Source of the DNA: Pedobacter sp. BS3
Lineage (GTDB): Bacteria > Bacteroidota > Bacteroidia > Sphingobacteriales > Sphingobacteriaceae
DNA length: 64,000 nt
Reading direction: 5' to 3'
Assembly: GCF_008274585.1 (NCBI RefSeq)
Contig: NZ_VTRT01000002.1
Span: forward strand, 62,001-126,000
Shown here: positions 6,189-45,503 of the stretch, piece by piece
Layout: each line of letters starts with the position of its first letter
Numbering within the stretch: position 1 is the stretch's first letter
Notes under the pieces: model-generated
Told to the model about the DNA's origin: nothing
The model's input: only the letters and a program-made list of their open reading frames with translations
Databases searched by the model: none
Position numbers and translations under genes: made by a program

Positions 6189-6555
6189 GGGGCCGACCGG
6201 AATTGACAGGATGGCGGCAAGTATGTAAGCATGCAGCGCATTGTGAGTAAAGCGCTTAAATCTGAACTCTCAACCTTATAAATGGCGAAAATAACTACGC
6301 CTTAGCTGCCTAATTTAGAATTAGCATAGCTTTTGTCCCGCTAACGGTTTTGTTCTGTACCGGTAGCAAACGGGGCATCGATTCACAGAACTGGCTGTAT
6401 TAACGGTGCGATAATACGGCGAGATCAAGCACCTAAGGAAGACGGTACAGGCAAGCGACTGGCCTTCCCCTTCCCGACAATTGAACAGAAGCTAAGCATG
6501 TAGAAAGCATAATTTGTTCCATGTTTGGACGAGGGTTCGAATCCCTCCGGCTCCA
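6189..6555 (+). ncRNA. ssrA: transfer-messenger RNA (tmRNA)
   Basis: The 5' end GGGGCCG pairs with CGGCTCC at the 3' end to make the tRNA-like acceptor stem, and the T-arm GGTTCGAATCC is intact. The tag frame starts at the resume codon GGC (6284-6286) and reads GENNYALAA with stop TAA at 6311-6313, the Bacteroidota pattern. The RNA rescues stalled ribosomes. Prophage insertion lies in its 3' end. The encoded CCA found beyond attR (ACCA at 45486-45489) is replaced here by ACTT, so the lysogen must add CCA enzymatically. The original terminator is also displaced. Confidence 0.95.
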
Positions 6556-6556
6556 C
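6524..6556 (+). other. attL
   Basis: The 33-bp core starts TTTGGACGAGGG and ends GGCTCCAC. It is identical to 45455-45487. It contains the T-arm and acceptor 3' strand of tmRNA, so integration rebuilds the gene. Identity stops on both sides (ATG before and TTTT after here; ACC before and CACA after at attR). Confidence 0.95.
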
Positions 6557-6581
6557 TTTTAAACAACTGATTGTCAGTCGC

Positions 6582-7835
6582 ATGAAAATGCTGGCTGACA
6601 CAGCAGCTGACACGAGTTTAGAAAAATTACTCCCAGTGAAACCAAAATGGGAAGGCCCCTTTATTTACGAACCTCCAGGCGGTGATCTTACAAAAGATTG
6701 GTTTGTCTGGTTAAACTATCAACACCCTATTACCGGTCAAATGGTCCGGGCTGGCCGTTATAGTTATGGCTTTGCTCAGTACAATACCAAAACAGAACGC
6801 CGGCAGCATGCTCTTGCTCTGAAGGCCGTGATAGAAGAGCTGCTAAAGGAAGGCTGGAATCCCTTTGAAGAATACAATGTATTCGACCATCAGCAGGACA
6901 ATCGCGTTGTTACCCTTATTGATAATTACTTAAAAGAAATAAAAGGAAGCATCAGGCCTAATACTTATCGTAAATACGAAACCGAGCTGAATCTTTTCAA
7001 AAAGTGGCTTGAAACAAACGGCTTTTCCGGGCTTCAGATGAATGAAGTGAAAAAGGCTGTTGTTACTTCTTTTCTTCAGGAATATAAATTAAAAAAGGAG
7101 TGGAAGGGGAAAACCTACAACAACTACCTTAACGACATTACCACCTTTTTTAATTATTATCACGAGAATTACGATGAGGTCATCGAAAAGGTTCCTACGG
7201 TAAGTCTGAAGCGGCAACCTACATTATCACCAGGCAACCAAGCCTGGAACGACTGGCAGTTCAAAAAACTGAAAGAATGGATGCTGGAAGACGGCGAAGA
7301 CCTGCTCTATATCTTCTGCAGCTTTATATATTATGGAGCGCTCCGAAATGAAGCTGAAGCTAATTATCTGAGGGCCGGTGATTTTAATTTCAAAATCAGG
7401 ACGTTAAAAATCGAATCCGGAACAGCAAAGAACCGGACAACCGAATACATCCCGATTTACCCAGACTTCTTGGAGCTGTTGTATGAGTTGAAGATCGATC
7501 AACTTCCGGCCGATTATTATATTTTCGGAAAAACAAAGAATCAGCGCTTTGTTGCTAAAAAGGATTTTGTGATCGGCGCCCCGTACCAAATCGGCCAGGA
7601 TTATTTTGCACGTCATTTTCGACCTTATAAGAAACGATTAGGTATTCCGGATGAAGAACACGGGATATACCGGTACAAACACACCAGGGCTGTACACCTC
7701 GGCGAAGATGGGGAAGACCTGTACAAGATCATGAAGCTATTCCGGCACCGGGACTTAGCAACAACAATGATTTATATGCGAGGTCTGGGCGTTGACACCC
7801 AAAACACAGAGTATACGAAAGGGAGAAAGTTTTAA
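6582..7835 (+). CDS. int: phage tyrosine integrase
   Basis: A tyrosine recombinase with a SAM-like core-binding domain (residues about 125-220) and a catalytic domain. Visible are Arg in GALRNEAEANY, the KHTRA box (H..R), LFRHRD and the nucleophile Tyr in MIYMRG. It should catalyse recombination between attP and ssrA. The first ATG inside the prophage is 6582, with another at 6588; no good ribosome-binding site precedes them. The frame is open upstream through the whole att core. In the excised phage it joins the ORF starting at 45342, so the form in the prophage is probably an N-terminally truncated product. Confidence 0.92.
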   Translation: MKMLADTAADTSLEKLLPVKPKWEGPFIYEPPGGDLTKDWFVWLNYQHPITGQMVRAGRYSYGFAQYNTKTERRQHALALKAVIEELLKEGWNPFEEYNVFDHQQDNRVVTLIDNYLKEIKGSIRPNTYRKYETELNLFKKWLETNGFSGLQMNEVKKAVVTSFLQEYKLKKEWKGKTYNNYLNDITTFFNYYHENYDEVIEKVPTVSLKRQPTLSPGNQAWNDWQFKKLKEWMLEDGEDLLYIFCSFIYYGALRNEAEANYLRAGDFNFKIRTLKIESGTAKNRTTEYIPIYPDFLELLYELKIDQLPADYYIFGKTKNQRFVAKKDFVIGAPYQIGQDYFARHFRPYKKRLGIPDEEHGIYRYKHTRAVHLGEDGEDLYKIMKLFRHRDLATTMIYMRGLGVDTQNTEYTKGRKF

Positions 7836-32459: not shown

Positions 32460-33187
32460 CGTTGATATTTTAATTTCACTTTTTCCGGATCCTGACCAGG
32501 ACGGATGTAAACAACTGTCTTAGCATCGATACGCAGCGGTATCTTATTACTCAGGTCCACTGGCTTGAATGTAACCGGCTTAACTTCCTTTAGAGATTCC
32601 TTCCGGAGTTGTTCTTCCAGTCGTTTCCGTTCGCGTTCAGCTGCGGCCTGTTTCTTTTTTTGCTCCTTCAGAATCTCCTTACGCTTACGTTCAGCATCTT
32701 TCCGTTTAGCCTTTGTCGATTGATAGGTTTGTTGATGCTTTTTATTTCGCTTCAGGTTTTCAGCCCGGGTAATAAGCTCCAGATTTGATAATACACAGTT
32801 AAGCGAATCACCATCCTTGTAAGACAGACAATAACCTTCAGGGATATCCTTTCCGACACTTCTCCAGAGATAGAGCTTCAACGGTTCCCATTCTCCAGCT
32901 GAAAGGCGTATCCATTTTTCAAGGCGTCCTTTATCGTTCCTGATGGTGACCTTCTTATCACGTAAAGCATTAACTGGTATCTGGCCGGGCTTGAACGTGC
33001 CATCATTCCGAAGCCGTAAAAGAGCTAATGCGGAAGCTGATTTTTTAAGTCCAAGATCGCGGGCCCTCCGACGAACGGCACTATCAGTGCAGCCGAGCTT
33101 TAACGCCAGCTCCTGGATAGTAAGAGGCTCAAAATACAGTACCAGGTTGAATAATTTAGTATGCGTCCACTTCATCGTTTTTCCCAT
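32456..33187 (-). CDS. HNH-like protein with helix-turn-helix and coiled coil
   Basis: 243 residues: an N-terminal helix-turn-helix (LTIQELALKLGCTDSAVRRR), an HNH-like core (LYLWRSVGKDIPEGYCLSYK then DGDSLNCVLSNLELITRAEN), then a long Lys/Glu coiled coil and a small C-terminal domain. The expected metal His residues are partly replaced, for example Ser-Tyr-Lys in place of H-x-D, so catalysis may be lost. It overlaps neighbours on both sides. Confidence 0.6.
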   Translation of the reverse strand: MGKTMKWTHTKLFNLVLYFEPLTIQELALKLGCTDSAVRRRARDLGLKKSASALALLRLRNDGTFKPGQIPVNALRDKKVTIRNDKGRLEKWIRLSAGEWEPLKLYLWRSVGKDIPEGYCLSYKDGDSLNCVLSNLELITRAENLKRNKKHQQTYQSTKAKRKDAERKRKEILKEQKKKQAAAERERKRLEEQLRKESLKEVKPVTFKPVDLSNKIPLRIDAKTVVYIRPGQDPEKVKLKYQR

Positions 33188-34149
33188 TTAATAGTATTCT
33201 GAAATCTGTCTTTAACCGGGTACAAACCCAATGACCGGAGATGAGCCCAATAGGATTGAAGCTGCTTAACATCCAGTTTCTTCTCATAATCCGATGACCA
33301 GTAATCAGGGAATGAGCTGCCTGTTTGATTTTGATTTGGCTCCTTGGCAATAATCTCATCAAGCCAGGCCTGGTTATTCAGATAGGTTTCCGGATTCTTA
33401 CGGTACTGTTTTTCAGGCTGAGAAGCGATATATTTCGGAATATGTTCCATGATCAGCACACGGTCACGGTTGGAAAGTTTCTCCCACTTCTTCCGTAGCT
33501 TAACGACATTACCAACTTTTTTCTTGTAAGCATCCCAAAAGTCCTCAAACGGGATATTGATTGATTTAACGACTACTTCAGGCGTGTCACTTTCATCCGT
33601 AACCGTCTCTGTGTTTTCATCATTTTTAATTTCAAAATCAATATCAGGAGCCTCAGCTCCGGTATCTGGGGATATAGGGGTATTTACTTTACTTTCCTTT
33701 ACTTTACTTTGTGTACTTCCGGTGTCATTAATCGAGTTATTGACGGAAGAAACAGAGTTATTGACGGAAGAAATTAAAAAACGCTGATCAAATTGAACAT
33801 CTGTACGCTTCGCCGAACCTTGTTTGAACCTTTTTTGAATCTCATCTGATGTTAATATCCCGTACTTTTCATACAATTCCTGGTTGAAAAAATTCACCTC
33901 GATAGCTTTGTTAATGATATCATTAACATCCTCTTCCGGAGTGCCGGTAACATCCGAAATATCAAAGGCCAAGTCATCATCAAATAGAATATAATAACCC
34001 TTGTACCGGTATATATTACACATCAGGCAGGATAATACCGTACCAGACACTGGTCCGCAGGATCTCATTATTTTCCGGACCTTCCGATTATCGTAGAAGT
34101 CCACATCAAATGAGAAGTAATCTAACCCTTGTTTTACCGGTCTTGCCAT
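33172..34149 (-). CDS. DUF4373 replication-associated protein
   Basis: 325 residues. The N-terminal 100 residues (GLDYFSFDVDFYDNRKVRKI and onward) are the Lin1244/Lin1753-like DUF4373 domain found in phage replication-initiation proteins of Bacteroidota and Firmicutes. A disordered Ser/Asn/Thr linker precedes a C-terminal helical domain (FEDFWDAYKKKVGNVVKLRK, then a P-E-T-Y-L-N-N-Q-x-W motif) like helicase-loader or DnaD-type proteins. It probably initiates phage replication. Confidence 0.75.
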   Translation of the reverse strand: MARPVKQGLDYFSFDVDFYDNRKVRKIMRSCGPVSGTVLSCLMCNIYRYKGYYILFDDDLAFDISDVTGTPEEDVNDIINKAIEVNFFNQELYEKYGILTSDEIQKRFKQGSAKRTDVQFDQRFLISSVNNSVSSVNNSINDTGSTQSKVKESKVNTPISPDTGAEAPDIDFEIKNDENTETVTDESDTPEVVVKSINIPFEDFWDAYKKKVGNVVKLRKKWEKLSNRDRVLIMEHIPKYIASQPEKQYRKNPETYLNNQAWLDEIIAKEPNQNQTGSSFPDYWSSDYEKKLDVKQLQSYWAHLRSLGLYPVKDRFQNTIKWEKR

Positions 34150-34595
34150 TATAGTCTCTCCTTAGCGAATGTGGAAACAGTTAATCGATGTACACCCAGT
34201 ATCCTGCCAATAGCACTGTAGGAAACATTTTTATCCAACAGGTCTTGAATTTTTTTCTCTTGTCCTGTCAATTTAGTTTTGGATGATTTACGTCCTATAG
34301 GCCTACCAAGAATGATATCTGACAGCTTACTTTCCATTTGCTTCTTACCTTTATTGGGGGGGGGAGTTCCAGGCTTGATACGATATCTAAGTCCTGATGC
34401 TGCTAACCTTTCTCCCTGTTTCTTTTTCTCCATGGCCTTAAAATCTTCAGACTTTTCGAGTCCCATTAAATAAGCCTGATTACTGACAGAGCAATAGCTG
34501 CAGTTCAACAGCTTACATATCTCAGCGGTATATGTATCAGGGAATAACCGCCTAAGCTCTTGCCGTTCCTCCGGAGTCCAAATTCTGCGATTCAT
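34149..34595 (-). CDS. DNA-binding protein with two helix-turn-helix segments
   Basis: 148 residues. The N-terminus (RRIWTPEERQELRRLFPDTY) resembles SANT/Myb-like DNA binding. The C-terminus (LTGQEKKIQDLLDKNVSYSA, then IGRILGVHRLTVSTF) resembles the resolvase-type helix-turn-helix. A nine-C tract encodes PPP in the middle (34364-34356) and could slip. No specific family assigned. Confidence 0.6.
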   Translation of the reverse strand: MNRRIWTPEERQELRRLFPDTYTAEICKLLNCSYCSVSNQAYLMGLEKSEDFKAMEKKKQGERLAASGLRYRIKPGTPPPNKGKKQMESKLSDIILGRPIGRKSSKTKLTGQEKKIQDLLDKNVSYSAIGRILGVHRLTVSTFAKERL

Positions 34596-34749
34596 GTTTT
34601 TTAATTAAAATTTCCAGCTTATCAAGATTTAAATCGATGAGGAGCTGCAACGCATTCTTTTTGTCAGCATAGTACTTGATCATTTCAGTACATTGCTCCA
34701 GCTCTTCAAACAGCCGTTTGTTTTGCGCTGACAACTCCTCATAATTCAT
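34552..34749 (-). CDS. small coiled-coil protein
   Basis: 65 residues, mainly one coiled coil (LSAQNKRLFEELEQCTEMIK and onward). It overlaps the next gene by 44 nt and starts 3 bp after the preceding stop. Unknown function. Confidence 0.5.
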   Translation of the reverse strand: MNYEELSAQNKRLFEELEQCTEMIKYYADKKNALQLLIDLNLDKLEILIKKHESQNLDSGGTARA

Positions 34750-34752
34750 AGC

Positions 34753-34995
34753 TTACCCCTCCAACTCTTTAAGCCTGGCATTCAGCTTGGCCTCCCTTCG
34801 GTCACGGTCTAACTTATCTCTCAACGGTATCATTTCAGCATTAAAGTCATCACTATCCGATACGCCAATCCCACCATCAATAAAGCTGTGCAACGTTTCA
34901 GCTACTTCTAAGGACATAGTGATAGTAACACTACGCCTAACAGGCAGTTTTGCGTCATTGCCGTCTAACGGTTTATTTTCAAGTTCTGTACTCAT
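34753..34995 (-). CDS. small phage protein whose N-terminus is encoded by an attC-like site
   Basis: 80 residues. Codons 1-18 (MSTELENKPLDGNDAKLP) lie within attC-like site 1 and the frame then continues through its terminal box into the rest of the gene (SLEVAETLHSFIDGGIGVSD and onward). The ATG at 34995 has an A-rich upstream stretch; an alternative is Met27. It is the first non-cassette gene downstream of the array, and may be the anchor into which the array was inserted. Confidence 0.5.
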   Translation of the reverse strand: MSTELENKPLDGNDAKLPVRRSVTITMSLEVAETLHSFIDGGIGVSDSDDFNAEMIPLRDKLDRDRREAKLNARLKELEG

Positions 34996-35072
34996 AATAT
35001 TATTTTGTTTATAAATTAAAGTTTATCGCTTTGGTTCGGCAACGAACGCAAAGCTGCTAAGACGTTAGGCGC
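34933..35072 (-). repeat. attC-like site 1
   Basis: Boxes GCCTAAC (34935-34941) and GTTAGGC (35064-35070) are exact consensus RYYYAAC and GTTRRRY. The inner arms GCAGTTTTGCGT and ACGCAAAGCTGC pair, then TTGCCG pairs with CGGCAA, leaving a large AT-rich loop. Total 136 bp between box ends. The loop carries the ATG of the 34753 gene. Confidence 0.85.
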
Positions 35073-35404
35073 TATGGTAAAATCTCAAAATGACCATCGC
35101 ATGCAAAATGATATTTTTCTTTGTCCAAATCGGCTCGTTTTTTTAACGTTTTTGACATTATTTCAAAATGTTGGCATGCTCTTGAATTGTGCCAAACAGG
35201 TTGTCTAATATCAGAATCAAGTAGTACTATATTGCCATTTCGGCTTTTCAATGTGCAGTCGTACAGTTCATTAGTTTTTCCGTTTTTAAACTTAACTGTT
35301 TTGCCGCCTTCAGCAAATAAACAATCGCCACAGCGCATAACAGGCAGTTTTGTGCTATTACTGCTATTGGAACTATCTTCAACTTTCTTTTTTCTATTTG
35401 CCAT
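35072..35404 (-). CDS. cassette A: Cys/His-rich protein
   Basis: 110 residues from the ATG at 35404, which lies inside attC-like site 2; about 22 polar residues ending NSTKLPV are encoded by that site. An internal ATG at 35338 overlaps the opening box (GTTATGC) and gives 88 residues. The body has CGDC, later C, and RACQHFE and HFACDGH, spaced like a zinc-binding fold. Stop TAG is 1 nt before the closing GCCTAAC box. Opening and closing boxes are complementary with one mismatch. Function unknown. Confidence 0.6.
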   Translation of the reverse strand: MANRKKKVEDSSNSSNSTKLPVMRCGDCLFAEGGKTVKFKNGKTNELYDCTLKSRNGNIVLLDSDIRQPVWHNSRACQHFEIMSKTLKKRADLDKEKYHFACDGHFEILP

Positions 35405-35472
35405 TGGTAAGTATTTAAACTTTAGTTTTTCAAATTCAGTAACAGACACAAAGCTGCTACCACGTTATATGC
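35333..35472 (-). repeat. attC-like site 2
   Basis: Boxes GCATAAC (35335-35341) and GTTATAT (35464-35470), 136 bp. Inner arms AGGCAGTTTTGTG and CACAAAGCTGCT pair as in site 1. The loop region contains an in-frame ATG (35404) for cassette A. Confidence 0.82.
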
Positions 35473-35477
35473 AATGG

Positions 35478-35657
35478 CTATTCGAGTAGTCCATGAAATT
35501 CATTGTTTCCACATTTAGGGCATACGTGGTCGGTTTGATACTCATTAATACGTTTATGAGCTTTTTCCTCATCTCTTCCCTGCCATTTACACTTTTTCTT
35601 CGTGCATTCATATCTTTTTGCTTCTTCACCCCATCGGGTATATTTTCTTTTTGCCAT
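35478..35657 (-). CDS. cassette B: 59-residue zinc-ribbon protein
   Basis: Reads MAKRKYTRWGEEAKRYECTK, then KKCKWQGRDEEKAHKRINEY, then QTDHVCPKCGNNEFHGLLE. Two Cys pairs (C-x4-C and C-x2-C) make a zinc ribbon. This frame has coding character, unlike a longer overlapping frame with a TTG start at 35465-35695. Stop TAG lies 6 nt before the closing box GCATATAAC. The opening box GTTATATGC is its exact reverse complement. Confidence 0.75.
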   Translation of the reverse strand: MAKRKYTRWGEEAKRYECTKKKCKWQGRDEEKAHKRINEYQTDHVCPKCGNNEFHGLLE

Positions 35658-35684
35658 ATTTCTTTAAGTTTTGTAACCGCCACT

Positions 35685-35785
35685 GCATATAACAAGCAGT
35701 TTTACGCTATGCCAGTGGACGGCTGTTAATAATAATTTTAGTTTACAAAGTTGGCACAGCGTAAAGCTGCTCCAACGTTAGCAGC
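35685..35785 (-). repeat. attC-like site 3
   Basis: Boxes ATATAAC (35687-35693) and GTTAGCA (35777-35783). Inner arms AAGCAGTTTTACGCT and AGCGTAAAGCTGCT are nearly perfect complements, followed by GCCA/TGGC. 97 bp. Confidence 0.85.
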
Positions 35786-35790
35786 AATAA

Positions 35791-35979
35791 CTACCGACCA
35801 CCTTCGACATAGTGTTCACGTATTTCTTCCGCTGCATCTTCTTGAGCATCAATTGCCCCTTCTTGATAACACTTTTCAGCAAAATCACGAAGGATAATTA
35901 CACTTGCTTCTATGTTTTTAGACTGCATCAAAAGTTCTGCTAACTCATAAATTTCTTTCTCTTGTTTTGACTGTTCCAT
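35791..35979 (-). CDS. cassette C: small helical protein
   Basis: 62 residues, a single long helical region rich in Glu (ELAELLMQSKNIEASVIILR; EGAIDAQEDAAEEIREHYVE). The start is 16 nt after the opening box GTTAGCAGC, and the stop is 5 nt before the closing box GCTGCTAAC, its exact reverse complement. Function unknown. Confidence 0.6.
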   Translation of the reverse strand: MEQSKQEKEIYELAELLMQSKNIEASVIILRDFAEKCYQEGAIDAQEDAAEEIREHYVEGGR

Positions 35980-35994
35980 TTTTAATCCGTTACT

Positions 35995-36089
35995 GCTGCT
36001 AACAAGGCATTGGCAATACCCGCTGGACAGCTTGTTTATAATTTAAAGTTTCTAAGTGCGGGCATCGCCAATACCCGACCGTTGGCGGT
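35995..36089 (-). repeat. attC-like site 4
   Basis: Boxes TGCTAAC (35997-36003) and GTTGGCG (36081-36087), 91 bp. Inner arms GCATTGGCAATACCCGC and GCGGGCATCGCCAATAC pair over about 14 positions. Confidence 0.82.
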
Positions 36090-36093
36090 AAAC

Positions 36094-36456
36094 CTATGGA
36101 TGCCACTCGGTAACATCAAACTCGGACGGCAACAAACCAAGTTTTTCACCATTGGGTAAAATGGCAGACACCGCACCGTATGAATTTACCCATACATAAT
36201 ACTCATTGTCTTTCAAGCAAATTGTATCGTCTTTAATACCTAATTCCTTTTTAAACTCCATCAGGTCGGGAGTTACATTTTTTGCAACTTTCACTTTTAG
36301 CGGAACTCTACCCCGAAAGTTTGCAGGGTAATCAAATCTACCACCCCTATCTGACTGCCATTTCAAAGCGGGAGAAGTAAGGGCAACCGCCAACATATTA
36401 TTGCCGTCAATGGCGGGTGAAGTGCTTAATTGGTCATTTGTGCTGTTCATATACAT
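36094..36456 (-). CDS. cassette D: hypothetical protein
   Basis: 120 residues. The first 20 codons (MYMNSTNDQLSTSPAIDGNN) lie within attC-like site 5. A second ATG at 36396 abuts the opening box GTTGGCG and gives 100 residues. The body contains WQSDRGGRFDYPANFRGRVP and YYVWVNSYGAVSAILPNGEK, typical of small mixed alpha/beta phage or plasmid proteins, with no known role. Opening box GTTGGCGGT and closing box ACCGCCAAC are exact complements. Confidence 0.6.
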   Translation of the reverse strand: MYMNSTNDQLSTSPAIDGNNMLAVALTSPALKWQSDRGGRFDYPANFRGRVPLKVKVAKNVTPDLMEFKKELGIKDDTICLKDNEYYVWVNSYGAVSAILPNGEKLGLLPSEFDVTEWHP

Positions 36457-36523
36457 TTGTTTTTAAGTTGAAATTTTGTACTATTTAAACCGCCACTGCG
36501 GCAATAATCGGAACGTTATGTGT
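36386..36523 (-). repeat. attC-like site 5
   Basis: Boxes CGCCAAC (36388-36394) and GTTATGT (36515-36521), 134 bp. Inner arms ATTATTGCCG and CGGCAATAAT are a perfect 10-bp match; TGGCGG/CCGCCA extend it. Carries the ATG of cassette D. Confidence 0.8.
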
Positions 36524-36528
36524 AATGG

Positions 36529-37050
36529 CTACGAACCGTAACCTAACAAATTTTGCATAAATTCGTACATACCTACTTTCTTTGAATTAACCCAATTCTC
36601 TTTTTTGTTTTGCTCATACATTTGTGTAAGTTTCTCCCAATTTTCAGATAATGCTTTCCATTCTTTTGACAATGTTGCTAATTCGGGGACACGTTCTTTC
36701 CATTCAGGTACAGCTTCTAAAAGTTCCCAACATCTCGAAAAGTCATCAGGGTCGTAGGGATGGTTTATTGGGAAATCTTTATTCCCTATAAAATAATTCC
36801 ACATTGTTTTTGAACTCATTCCTACGTGTCCGTTACCAATCCACCACATTGCTTTTTCTGTCACTGATTTGCTTTGGTCGGCTTTTGGTTCTGTCCACGT
36901 TTTTGCACAGTCTTTGTGCAACACATTGAAAGCATCAATTTTTTTAGTCATCTCGTTAATAGCAACAGGCATATTTAGAGGATGATTGCCACCGCAATTC
37001 AAACAAAAAAGAGAATTGTTTCTAATCGTTGTATGTTCTACTTTACTCAT
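36529..37050 (-). CDS. cassette E: phage-type accessory protein with Cys pair
   Basis: 173 residues. LFCLNCGGNH followed later by HKDC suggests a metal site. WWIGNGHVGMSSKTMWNYFI and the NHPYDPDDFSRCWELLEAVP segment, with a helical C-terminus, are the layout of an unnamed protein I recall from many phages. AAGGAAAC before the ATG could bind ribosomes. Stop lies 5 nt before the closing box ACACATAAC; the opening box GTTATGTGT is its exact complement. Confidence 0.68.
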   Translation of the reverse strand: MSKVEHTTIRNNSLFCLNCGGNHPLNMPVAINEMTKKIDAFNVLHKDCAKTWTEPKADQSKSVTEKAMWWIGNGHVGMSSKTMWNYFIGNKDFPINHPYDPDDFSRCWELLEAVPEWKERVPELATLSKEWKALSENWEKLTQMYEQNKKENWVNSKKVGMYEFMQNLLGYGS

Positions 37051-37076
37051 AATGTTTCCTTTTTATACCCGCCACT

Positions 37077-37212
37077 ACACATAACAAAGTGTTGGCAATA
37101 GGCGGGCTGAATTAATACTATTTTACTTTTGTTGTTTTATTGAGCTTTTGTGCTTCTATCGGCTTTGGTGCGTTATTGTCCGCCCATCGCCAACACTCGG
37201 CTCGTTATCGGA
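37077..37212 (-). repeat. attC-like site 6
   Basis: Boxes ACATAAC (37079-37085) and GTTATCG (37204-37210), 132 bp. Inner arms GTGTTGGCAATAGGCGG and CCGCCCATCGCCAACAC pair strongly. Confidence 0.83.
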
Positions 37213-37215
37213 AAT

Positions 37216-37461
37216 TCATTTTTTTTCCAACGCACATAGAACAGCATCAGCCAACTCAACCGCAGCACTTGCAAGCCTTTCTTTGTATTCATCCCAATCA
37301 TCAGGTGTTCTCATTGTTTTTACCCAATCGGGGTTAGATGCTAAGGCTTGCATAGCCAACGCAGTTAAGTGTTCTCTTTTTGTCAATCCGTCTTGCTGAT
37401 ATGTTTCAGACACACAGGCAAAAGCTGGTAATTCTCCGTTTGATTTGTTTACAGTGTTCAT
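37216..37461 (-). CDS. cassette F: phage-type accessory protein
   Basis: 81 residues. DGLTKREHLTALAMQALASN and the C-terminal AAVELADAVLCALEK are the hallmark ends of a small protein common in phages of many phyla (pattern G-L-T-K-R-E-x-x-A-x-x-A-M-Q), role unknown. Starts 41 nt after the opening box; stop TGA is 3 nt before the closing box TCCGATAAC, exact complement of GTTATCGGA. Confidence 0.7.
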   Translation of the reverse strand: MNTVNKSNGELPAFACVSETYQQDGLTKREHLTALAMQALASNPDWVKTMRTPDDWDEYKERLASAAVELADAVLCALEKK

Positions 37462-37502
37462 TTTGAAATTTGTTTATTGCCAACCCACAAAAAATAAAAC
37501 TA

Positions 37503-37604
37503 TCCGATAACACGGGTTTGGCGGAAATGCCACCAGATAGTTTGTGCCGTTGAAATTTAGGTTCGGAGTTGGTGGCACTTCGCCAAGCCCGAAAACGTAC
37601 CTGC
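37503..37604 (-). repeat. attC-like site 7
   Basis: Left box CGATAAC (37505-37511); right box GTACCTGC (37597-37604), which equals GTTACCTGC minus one T. Inner arms GGGTTTGGCGGAAATGCCACC and GGTGGCACTTCGCCAAGCCC pair with a few mismatches. Confidence 0.75.
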
Positions 37605-38086
37605 TACCCGTTGACCAACTTCAATAACAAGTCTGCATGACATTGTTCATCAAGTCCACACCAACAAGCCAAATGCTTCCCTTTTAGAGACAGTAAAGCA
37701 TCATCCATAACGACCATTGATTGATAAAAGTCCATCATTGAACCCTCTTTATGGCTGTACGGTAATAACCAAAAGCCATAGCATTTAATTGCATCAATAA
37801 CTGCTTCCTGTTTGGTGTCATACACAGCATGGCAGTGTTTAGTAAGTATCTCACTACATTTATCGCTGCCATCTGTTTTTATTGCCCATTTTTTATCCGA
37901 ATATTGGATAACTCTAAAAGGGTTTCCCCATCTGCTTCCACGACCAACATAAACAGTATTTTCAGGAATCTTCCACCCTTTTACTCTTTTTCGCTGAACC
38001 CTGACAGGAATGGCAGCAGGTAACATTTCATTGCTAAAATGCTGGCTGTTACCTATGCCTTCAACTTTATTTTCTTCTATGAACAT
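37604..38086 (-). CDS. cassette G: DUF4326 protein
   Basis: 160 residues. The core has IPENTVYVGRGSRWGNPF and the C-terminus LKGKHLACWCGLDEQCHADL, the defining ends of DUF4326, a small family found in phages and mobile elements with conserved Cys/His that may bind metal. The first 20 codons (MFIEENKVEGIGNSQHFSNE) are within attC-like site 8; an alternative ATG at 38026 overlaps the opening box GTTACC. The stop codon touches the closing box. Confidence 0.75.
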   Translation of the reverse strand: MFIEENKVEGIGNSQHFSNEMLPAAIPVRVQRKRVKGWKIPENTVYVGRGSRWGNPFRVIQYSDKKWAIKTDGSDKCSEILTKHCHAVYDTKQEAVIDAIKCYGFWLLPYSHKEGSMMDFYQSMVVMDDALLSLKGKHLACWCGLDEQCHADLLLKLVNG

Positions 38087-38149
38087 TTGTAGTTAATTAA
38101 TCTTTTGAATTTCTATTTCCAGCACTTCAGCAATGCTTCAACGTTACCG
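38016..38149 (-). repeat. attC-like site 8
   Basis: Boxes AGGTAAC (38018-38024) and GTTACCG (38143-38149), 132 bp. Inner arms CATTGCTAAAATGCTGG and CCAGCACTTCAGCAATG match at all but two positions. It marks the upstream end of the array. Its right arm encodes the last residues of the 38127 gene. Confidence 0.82.
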
Positions 38150-38447
38150 GCATTATATAACCATTGACCACCTCATCTATATATTCCACATTGTTATCCT
38201 TGTGATATAAATCGTCTGCTTTTTCTGCATAATGCGGAAGCTTGGATTTAGCAATTGGCTTTACCGGAACCAGGTTTAACAATTCGAAGCTTTTAATCTG
38301 TTCACGTATAGATTCCGTCTGGCCATTAACCAGTTCCTCGTAATTATCCCAGCCTTCCATCATAGTCTCATCTATCCCATTAAGCTGACCATAAATATCA
38401 GTCAGGAACTTTACCACGATTTCAGAATCTACCTTGTGCTTTTTCAC
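38127..38447 (-). CDS. hypothetical phage protein ending in attC-like site 8
   Basis: 106 residues, helical (SEIVVKFLTDIYGQLNGIDE and onward). It overlaps the helicase gene by 4 nt. Its last seven codons (VTLKHC region) are formed by the arm of site 8, which suggests the array was inserted at, or grew from, the 3' end of this gene. Function unknown. Confidence 0.55.
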   Translation of the reverse strand: MKKHKVDSEIVVKFLTDIYGQLNGIDETMMEGWDNYEELVNGQTESIREQIKSFELLNLVPVKPIAKSKLPHYAEKADDLYHKDNNVEYIDEVVNGYIMPVTLKHC

Positions 38448-40135
38448 GCTACTTTCTGATTGAATAGATTAATAAGGTCACTTATCACACTTTCTTCAAC
38501 CGCTTCAGCACTACCGGTAACCGCAGCGACCATTCCCCGTTTCTTATCGATGATATCATACACCTTCTCATCAATAGTATCTTTACCCAGGAAGTAGATA
38601 CAGCTCACACTATCTTTCTGGCCAATGCGGTGCGCACGATCTTCAGCCTGATCATGTATAGCCGGGTTCCACCATTGCTCTATAAAGGCCACACGACTGG
38701 CAGCTGTCAATGTTAATCCAACACCCGCGGCAATGATATTACCGACAAACAGTTTACAGTTATCATCATTCTGAAACTTGTCAACCGCAGCCTGTTTCTG
38801 TTTTTCATTATCATCGCCGGTCACGGTTACACAGTCCGGGTAATGCTGCTTAATAGCCTGTATGATCTCTTTTAGGTAGCCGAACAAAATCAGCTTCTCA
38901 CCGCTGGCCATAAGGTCATCGATATATTCGAAGATGGCCTCCATCTTTCCCCGGGCAGCAATGTTCTTCAGTATACCCATCTTTACCATGATCTCACCTC
39001 GTAGCGCCCGCTCAACCTTCTCATCATCGGCATTCTGATATTGCCGGAGATACTTCATCAGGTCCGCTTCAGCATCGTCGTACTCCTTACGGTTGGTAAT
39101 ATCACAGTAGACAATCTGCCTTATTTTTGGCGGCAAATCTTTCAGCACTTCAGATTTATCACGCTGGTAAAAGCAGTTAAGCCTGAGCTTATAATTAAGC
39201 TCCTTCAGGTTACTGGCATTATTCATGCCGGCACAATACCGGTTAATAAAGCCCTTATATCCTCCGAAAGCGCCGAGCTGGTCAATAATACCAAGCTGCG
39301 GTACGAGCTCCACCGGCTTATTCATTACCGGGGTACCGGTACACAATAAAATATTATCTTTTCCGGTACAGATACCCTTGACAAACTTGGTAGTGAGTGT
39401 AGCGAACGATTTACACCTATGGCTTTCATCAACGATAACAGATTTAAACATGCCAATCTTCTCAGCCAGGAAGACAATATCTTTAATTGTTATTCGTTTT
39501 TTTCGGCCATTTTCATCCGCTTCACGCTTAGGGAGGCTCTTAACAAAATACTTCTTCAGGCTTTCAAAGTTTACGATGAACACATCCGCCATGCCGTACT
39601 CCCAATATCTCGGAAAGGTTGTCCGGATTTTATCTTCCAGTACCATCGCTTTTTTATTGCTCCACTTCACCGACCATTCACGGCGCCAGTTTTCTTTTAA
39701 CGCTGACGGGCAAATAACAAGTGTAGGGAAGGCGGCAATACCTTGCTGCTCCAGTCCGATCAGTGTAGCGATGGCCTGAACAGTTTTACCAAGGCCTGGC
39801 TTATCTCCCAGGATTGTCCGGCGCTTTTGAAGATTATAGGCCACGCCCTGTTTTTGATATGGAAACATTTCCATTTTTAAAGGGATATCCATATCAAGAT
39901 CCGGCATAGGCGGTATCTCGAATACCTGCTCAACCTCCTGAGGCTTGCCGAATGTAAATTTATTTGCATGAGCAAAGCGCTCAACAGCTATCCTGTTTTC
40001 GATATGAACTTCCCAGCACTTGCCCAATGGATTGAACCTACGGCCGGGAATTTCTTTTACCCGGTCAACTATGCGGGCGTTGTACTGGAAGTATATTTTA
40101 AAGTAATTACCCTGCTGTTCGATGTAACCGCTCAT
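38444..40135 (-). CDS. SNF2-family helicase
   Basis: 563 residues. A short N-terminal HARP-like segment (IPGRRFNPLGKCWEVHIENR) precedes a two-lobed helicase: Walker A GDKPGLGKT (110-118), DESH box in VIVDESHRCKS, motif III CTGTP, and the C-terminal lobe with GVGLTLTAASRVAFIEQWWN and QAEDRAHRIGQ. It resembles SMARCAL1-type annealing helicases of phages and could remodel replication or recombination intermediates. Confidence 0.9.
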   Translation of the reverse strand: MSGYIEQQGNYFKIYFQYNARIVDRVKEIPGRRFNPLGKCWEVHIENRIAVERFAHANKFTFGKPQEVEQVFEIPPMPDLDMDIPLKMEMFPYQKQGVAYNLQKRRTILGDKPGLGKTVQAIATLIGLEQQGIAAFPTLVICPSALKENWRREWSVKWSNKKAMVLEDKIRTTFPRYWEYGMADVFIVNFESLKKYFVKSLPKREADENGRKKRITIKDIVFLAEKIGMFKSVIVDESHRCKSFATLTTKFVKGICTGKDNILLCTGTPVMNKPVELVPQLGIIDQLGAFGGYKGFINRYCAGMNNASNLKELNYKLRLNCFYQRDKSEVLKDLPPKIRQIVYCDITNRKEYDDAEADLMKYLRQYQNADDEKVERALRGEIMVKMGILKNIAARGKMEAIFEYIDDLMASGEKLILFGYLKEIIQAIKQHYPDCVTVTGDDNEKQKQAAVDKFQNDDNCKLFVGNIIAAGVGLTLTAASRVAFIEQWWNPAIHDQAEDRAHRIGQKDSVSCIYFLGKDTIDEKVYDIIDKKRGMVAAVTGSAEAVEESVISDLINLFNQKVA

Positions 40136-40762: not shown

Positions 40763-40838
40763 GTGGCAAGAACAGGATTCGAACCTATACCAATGACTGG
40801 GAGTTCCCAGTTATTGCGCTACCAATTACGCTACCCCA
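40763..40838 (-). tRNA. degenerate tRNA-like element
   Basis: On the minus strand D-arm sequence GCGTAATTGGTAGCGC and T-arm ATAGGTTCGAATCCTGT are textbook. The anticodon region instead reads AACTGGGAACTCCCAGTC, with an extended stem and too few loop bases, and the acceptor 5' strand (TTTGGGG) pairs badly with TCTTGCC. It is probably a decayed or atypical phage tRNA; no anticodon can be assigned with confidence. Confidence 0.4.
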
Positions 40839-45345: not shown

Positions 45346-45503
45346 GCGCTTTAAAAAAAATAATAGCTGACCGGCTGACTGACTGGGAGTCAGAAATCGG
45401 AAGCGAAAAAGCCGCTTTAAAGCTCAAAATAGCTGGTTTAGATAATAAAAGACCTTTGGACGAGGGTTCGAATCCCTCCGGCTCCACCACACGGGGCAAA
45501 TGA
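45342..45503 (+). CDS. attR-spanning ORF, N-terminus of integrase in the excised phage
   Basis: 53 codons starting MSALKKIIADRLTDWESEIG, running through attR and stopping in host DNA (TGA at 45501-45503). It overlaps the membrane-protein gene by ATGA. In the circular phage the same frame crosses the att core and continues straight into int (…SNPSGST-FKQLIVSR-MKML…), for 474 residues. So in the prophage this is the truncated 5' part of int. Confidence 0.7.
   Translation: MSALKKIIADRLTDWESEIGSEKAALKLKIAGLDNKRPLDEGSNPSGSTTRGK
45455..45487 (+). other. attR
   Basis: Second copy of the 33-bp ssrA 3'-end core, identical to 6524-6556. The native acceptor end ACCA and the ssrA terminator follow directly in host DNA. 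Confidence 0.95.

Follow-up and report, generated by a model that had tools for sequence, protein, structure and literature searches.

We describe here an array of gene cassettes carried by a prophage of Pedobacter sp. BS3, a member of the Sphingobacteriaceae (Bacteroidota), within a stretch of 64,000 nucleotides (assembly GCF_008274585.1, contig NZ_VTRT01000002.1, positions 62,001 to 126,000 of the forward strand) that we refer to throughout as the window. The array occupies positions 34933-38151 and consists of eight long imperfect hairpins of the attC type with seven minus-strand genes between them, inside a 39-kb complete prophage (6524-45487) that sits in the gene for transfer-messenger RNA (tmRNA; 6189-6556). 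With a probability of about 0.78, we read it as a seven-cassette integron array that a temperate phage carries in a Bacteroidota host and that a XerA-like recombinase of this host moves in trans. More broadly, single genes appear to pass between phages by means of an integron system that is widespread and goes unrecognized by the standard model for integron integrases, and the array of the window looks like a phage-borne member of this new integron variant.

Architecture of the Array

All eight sites share a common geometry: RYYYAAC, 4-7 unpaired nucleotides, a stem, a loop, the returning stem, 1-4 unpaired nucleotides and GTTRRRY, which is the imperfect RYYYAAC...GTTRRRY hairpin by which attC sites are recognized. 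An earlier note on this DNA, made from the sequence alone, had claimed eight AAC...GTT hairpins and seven co-oriented genes, and both were located where it placed them. A scanner for a generic AAC-stem-GTT pattern (score of at least 11) returned seven sites in 3.2 kb, compared with a mean of 0.32 and a maximum of three in 60 dinucleotide shuffles, and gave four weak matches elsewhere in the remainder of the 64-kb window. The eighth site, H7, was missed by the scanner because one A has been lost from its AAC box. The left box of H7, located at about 37597-37604, reads GCAGGTA-CG and is thus GCAGGTAAC with a single base deleted; its counterpart is intact in the homologous cassette of the viral contig L064. 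GTTGACC, which lies a few bases away, is not the H7 box. A covariance model built from the eight window sites alone, with the arms padded with N and the structure stated, scored those sites at 36-47 bits and the next match in the window at 15 bits, a separation to be read in the knowledge that the model was trained on the same eight sites. The predicted folds of the top and bottom strands are similar in energy, and an Rfam scan of the window gave no match to the hairpins, from a library that may contain no attC family.

On the minus strand, the first site in the direction of transcription is H8 (38016-38151; 45.9 bits with the covariance model), followed by the gene of cassette A (37604-38086), a DUF4326 protein (PF14216, 1.4e-18) whose homologues (77% and 65%) are attC-flanked cassettes of the metagenomic viral contigs L064 and L065, with the same boxes in one of them. 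The damaged site H7 (37503-37604; 39.3 bits) then leads into cassette B (37216-37461), a phage protein of unassigned function that matches phrog_2201, and H6 (37077-37212; 47.1 bits) into cassette C (36529-37050), which matches phrog_1229 and phrog_15291 and has a 67% homologue in the viral contig L062. Beyond H5 (36386-36523; 46.8 bits) lies cassette D (36094-36456), for which a sequence search of 247 genomes of the class returned the genome of the host itself as the sole match. H4 (35995-36089; 46.4 bits) precedes cassette E (35791-35979), to which Pfam and PHROG scans assigned no function, and H3 (35685-35785; 43.0 bits), part of the transferred unit described below, precedes cassette F (35465-35695), likewise without assigned function and with a 100% identical copy in the contig L247. 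Last come H2 (35333-35472; 36.6 bits), cassette G (35072-35449), also of no assigned function, whose probable start according to the analysis of open reading frames (ORFs) and hairpins is an ATG formed by the R' box (that before the gene), and the final site H1 (34933-35072; 36.5 bits). With eight sites and seven cassettes, the array falls within the phage version of a cluster of attC sites lacking an integron integrase (CALIN), for which at least two clustered attC sites with cassettes are required.

Pairing of Boxes Across Cassettes

The boxes on the two sides of an integron cassette gene come from one circular molecule and therefore pair with each other, whereas the two ends of one hairpin need not match. 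This rule provides a test that is independent of the covariance model trained on the window sites, and the attC and gene-cassette reading put forward in the earlier note passes it. Across the six variable box bases, R' before the gene pairs with R'' after it at 6/6 in six of the seven window cassettes and at 5/6 in the remaining one. When 71 consecutive site pairs from a wide range of loci are taken together, agreement is 6/6 in 50 and 5/6 in 7 of them, compared with 2.3% of random box pairs at 6/6. The two ends of a single hairpin, on the other hand, agree at 3.1 of six bases, no better than the 2.9 of random pairs.

Transfer of a Single Cassette

The unit formed by H3 and gene F (35463-35782, minus strand) is identical at 320 of 320 positions to a segment of a second prophage of the same genome (G000:C25; L247 7474-7793), a Mu-like element, and hence a prophage of another kind, with genes for Mu portal, Mu F and Mu gp36 proteins and a short cassette array of its own. 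The identity ends in or at the AAC boxes, on the long-spacer side, and the flanking sequence differs beyond them. Ends of this kind indicate that one hairpin moves together with the gene that follows it, as well as the box at which the unit is cut; moreover, homologous recombination is not expected to be the cause where both ends lie at boxes, and 100% identity over 320 bp in a second prophage means that the movement was recent. The transfer of a single cassette between phages, which the earlier note had proposed as a way for phages to trade single accessory genes, is thus directly supported, and the cassettes move as single units, as those of integrons do. Among segments of 200-4000 bp shared between loci, 10 of 67 begin and end no more than 12 nt from a box. 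Related phages either lack the array or carry different cassettes, and a fixed order of the seven genes was not seen.

Distribution and Polarity of the Sites

Outside the window the covariance model matched several genomes as well as a related phage and three further viral contigs, so that the attC-like scores which the earlier note had asked for in a covariance search were indeed obtained, and strongly, for the same site type. Whole-genome searches with this model overlook the 136-nt sites, including five of the eight window sites, and their counts are unusable as a measure of absence. An exact pattern scan found at least 119 genome stretches in GTDB, nearly all of Bacteroidota, and at least 120 viral stretches in IMG/VR; among the matches listed, the scanner located sites in 98 of 119 genome stretches and 108 of 120 viral stretches, and consecutive pairs matched at 6/6 in 78 of 103 cases and 120 of 177 cases, respectively. 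Of the contigs newly found with the first viral pattern, L080 alone scored with the covariance model. A Bacteroidota bacterium represented by a metagenome-assembled genome, SSA2 (complete chromosome CP058707), has 336 scanner sites over about 500 kb (3,475-3,984 kb; L263-L268, L255-L258, L271-L273, L306-L318), of which 307 are of one polarity and whose pairs match at 6/6 in 179 of 298 cases; the scanner gives some false positives, and a fair figure for this array is about 300 sites. It ends at a XerA-like recombinase, after which housekeeping genes follow.

The orientation of the gene relative to its site divides these arrays. Among the matches listed, 202 of 214 genes in viral contigs (L326-L445) terminate at the long-spacer box, and 103 of 114 in genome contigs (L128-L246) at the opposite, short-spacer box; the window array follows the viral pattern. 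The phage cassettes consequently seem to form a pool of their own, with the gene turned round relative to attC. A possible cause of this split is that the orientation of attC is constrained by phage replication and that of the gene by the phage operon.

Two side observations concern the sites themselves and their neighbors. The attC sites at L031 12154-12349 and L080 3956-4152 measure about 196 nt, and their loop holds the start of a small, conserved protein whose ORF crosses the site. In L069 (1249-2977), genes that by inspection encode IS200/IS605-like TnpA and TnpB adjoin an attC array.

Recombinases and attI Cores

The earlier note had reported no integron integrase near the array, and for canonical IntI this stands. 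None of 30 genomes with such sites contains IntI above the cut-off of model TIGR02249, which the same search exceeded in 105 of 395 genomes of a sample of the phylum and in 1 of 301 of the family of the host. The host genome has no IntI above the cut-off, and the phage integrase is the sole integrase that Pfam and PHROG scans found in the prophage. Beyond canonical IntI it does not hold, since on the host chromosome a XerA-like recombinase adjoins an array of this site type and a predicted attI core. One genome of the family (G028:C1; L035, L036) possesses two true IntI genes (346 and 301 bits) with no attC site within 20 kb on the array side; these genes were considered as a source and rejected, there being no attC sites nearby.

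XerA-like tyrosine recombinases lie at the end of the arrays of both FH1 and SSA2, and this type of enzyme matches TIGR02249 in two pieces. The insertion that forms the additional domain, by which integron integrases are defined or described (PMC2426708, PMC8138268), measures 31 residues in IntI and 0 in the 34 recombinases compared, so the IntI with additional domain that typifies the canonical integron is absent from these arrays. The array recombinases score below the IntI cut-off; the XerA model NF040815 is their best or near-best match (197-234 bits, relative to a cut-off of 220). The catalytic HxLRH and LGH...Y motifs are present in nearly all of them, and most have an N-terminal extension. 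A phylogenetic tree places IntI in a separate clade (support 100/99). The distance between the recombinase gene and a site is no more than 1.5 kb in about nine genomes.

If these enzymes serve as integron integrases, the near box of the first attC should have a pairing partner beside the recombinase, and seven loci were tested for this partner. A partner box matching at 9/9 was found in Chryseobacterium FH1, Maribacter 4G9, Chitinophagaceae BAC18, SSA2 and the host of the window array, and at 8/9 in Kaistella. As a control, the region beside the recombinase at six foreign loci was compared with the boxes of other sites, which reached 9/9 there in 0-0.6% of cases. The predicted 9-bp attI core, which an integron should possess, is thereby present in five of the seven loci, on the host and other chromosomes and not in the phage.

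In the host the integron is located on C21 (432-459.5 kb). Its recombinase (G000:C21:431991-432908) is 305 aa long, the predicted attI core is found at a distance of 90 bp, and the boxes of its six sites pair one after another, including those on either side of a 10-kb cassette. Among the genes carried there are those for a Ser/Thr kinase-TPR protein, for type I restriction-like proteins (as judged from their translations) and for a large helicase-nuclease that has an MTES_1575 domain, and one small cassette encodes a phage-type DNA methyltransferase. The same region (G000:C21:432-459.5 kb; L269, L249, L270) also holds TerD/vWA-like cargo and three small cassettes with the phage-type polarity.

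Proposed Mechanism and Competing Explanations

Taken from sequence comparison, the mechanism that we propose is as follows. The mobile unit would be one attC hairpin with the next gene along the minus strand, cut at the box with the long spacer of 5-6 nt (RYYYAA^C) and moved in trans by the XerA-like tyrosine recombinase of the host chromosomal integron, an enzyme without the IntI additional domain that sits beside its own array and predicted attI. Catalysis of cassette recombination by the recombinase at the end of an array, and movement of the prophage array by the enzyme of the host chromosome, are inferred; the exact cleavage point and the folding of attC as single-stranded DNA are putative. 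The phage early operon may supply transcription of the cassettes, whose roles we infer in the same manner. A wider reading, which we consider probable with somewhat less assurance than the reading of the array itself, is that the Bacteroidia have an integron class of their own, served by XerA-like integrases that have no IntI additional domain and marked by attC sites of distinct geometry in arrays of up to about 500 kb, and that phages trade a separate pool of inverted-gene cassettes for which the host integron is the hub and the source of the enzyme.

Several explanations compete with this one. Hairpins that separate co-directional genes can be terminators, and the sites do show sequence conservation; the eight hairpins might be ordinary repeats (terminators or elements resembling miniature inverted-repeat transposable elements) and the gene order that of a plain phage operon. 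Neither kind of repeat predicts that boxes match across genes and not within hairpins, as the 71 pairs do, and this view is already contradicted to the point that we give it almost no credence. It is also conceivable that a canonical IntI of an earlier host built the array and that the phage now carries it along passively as an inert CALIN. Surveys commonly record CALINs that lack IntI (PMC9024848), the host has no IntI above the cut-off, and IntI occurs in just one of the 301 family genomes. A passive passenger, however, would not account for a 320-bp unit that moved recently into a second prophage, 100% identical and ending at boxes; furthermore, the IntI arrays of the phylum have clearly different sites (at most 22.6 bits with the window model), and arrays of the present type abound in genomes without IntI. 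We therefore think an inert array improbable. Movement by another recombinase, whether the housekeeping XerC/D or an enzyme encoded by the phage, seems about equally improbable: the candidate enzymes are themselves Xer-like (NF040815), and a related recombinase is encoded by three viral stretches near arrays and by L062, but the candidates lie at array ends with an attI core adjoining, and a related recombinase occurs in just 4 of 125 viral stretches.

Certain observations nevertheless weigh against movement by the host XerA-like enzyme. This genome offers a single clear case of a transferred unit. The array recombinases fall outside IntI in three groups of the tree and form no single supported clade. 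The presence of relatives of the recombinase in 26 of 31 genomes with sites, compared with 126 of 247 of the class, counts in favor of this enzyme; since a loose match occurs in half of the class anyway, it says little by itself, and proximity to a site says more. Beside the recombinase of C. salipaludis the attI core was not found. Finally, the IntI additional domain is held essential for integron function in published work, and a recombinase without one must therefore handle attC differently.

Relation to Known Systems

Phage CALINs, attC clusters without an integrase, have been described in temperate and virulent phages, including the Bacteroidota phage Polaribacter P12002L, and IntI1 was shown to recombine their attC sites with attI1 (Qi et al., 2023, Front Microbiol 14:1091391, PMC9892861). 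The earlier note, which had not regarded this as an established phage system while allowing for single related reports, requires amendment on this point. The window array resembles these CALINs as an attC cluster in a phage without an adjoining integron integrase, and differs from them in its seven cassettes within a prophage, its distinct 5-6/1-2 spacer geometry, an identical unit common to two prophages and a non-IntI recombinase in the host; P12002L matches the window model at one place, at 23.7 bits only. With the sedentary chromosomal integrons, or super-integrons, the present system shares an integrase at the end, an attI core, a long array of one polarity, box pairing and defense cargo. 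Unlike those with IntI, its recombinase lacks the additional domain and scores below the IntI cut-off; its attC stem is offset by about 4 nt between the arms, and the SSA2 array, at about 500 kb, is very large.

Integrons with IntI in other classes of the same phylum (L121 and L122, in G762 and G793) show a similar spacer asymmetry and box pairing, and by inspection L122 has the same gene polarity, but they possess true IntI above the cut-off, and their sites differ (17-23 bits with model R1). Their spacer asymmetry is a possible link between the IntI and XerA-like systems. The XerA or simple tyrosine recombinases (NF040815; Smyshlyaev et al., 2021, PMC8138268) are similar in family match and catalytic motifs; several of the present enzymes, unlike the genes for chromosome-dimer resolution, adjoin attC arrays and a predicted attI core.

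Bacteroidetes integrons are almost absent from surveys, which recorded only In0 elements and then one complete integron, in Salinibacter (PMC9024848). For the recombinase type, its arrays and the polarity split, no paper was found in the open-licence literature, a search that left preprints and most subscription papers outside, and all three appear to be new, while phage CALINs are known. If our reading is correct, it extends integrons to a large bacterial group with almost none in surveys and explains why current surveys miss these arrays. It would also place at their center an enzyme without a part thought essential for integron recombination, thus making attC recombination without the IntI additional domain testable, and would give phages a concrete way of exchanging accessory genes one at a time.

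The Prophage and the Setting of the Array

The position of the array inside a prophage, as the earlier note had it, is confirmed by a perfect 33-bp attachment repeat that corresponds to the 3' end of the tmRNA gene, with copies at 6524-6556 and 45455-45487 (both on the plus strand), and by the integrase gene that adjoins the first copy (6525-7835, plus strand; Pfam Phage_integrase, PHROG integrase). The latter is a phage tyrosine integrase for integration at tmRNA and not an integron integrase. Also within the prophage, a weak tRNA-like match on the minus strand (40764-40837) reaches 29.2 bits, just at the Rfam threshold, where ARAGORN makes no call. A nucleotide search with the array against 50,697 phage records gave no match, and an empty insertion site was not found in the close relatives L030, L031 and L032, which have the helicase (61-75% identity) with other genes adjoining it.

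As to the immediate neighbors, all on the minus strand, the earlier note had placed the array between helicase and replication genes. The first half of that description stands: a SNF2-type helicase of the phage early region (38444-40135; Pfam SNF2-rel_dom and Helicase_C) lies upstream, followed by a small phage gene just before the array (38127-38447) whose stop codon falls inside H8, so that this flank spans 38127-40135. The second half requires amendment, as the other flank (33172-34995) consists of a Lin1244-type phage protein (33172-34149; PF14297, 4.6e-27) and its neighbors, the first phage gene after the array (34753-34995) being an ORF that extends out of the loop of H1.

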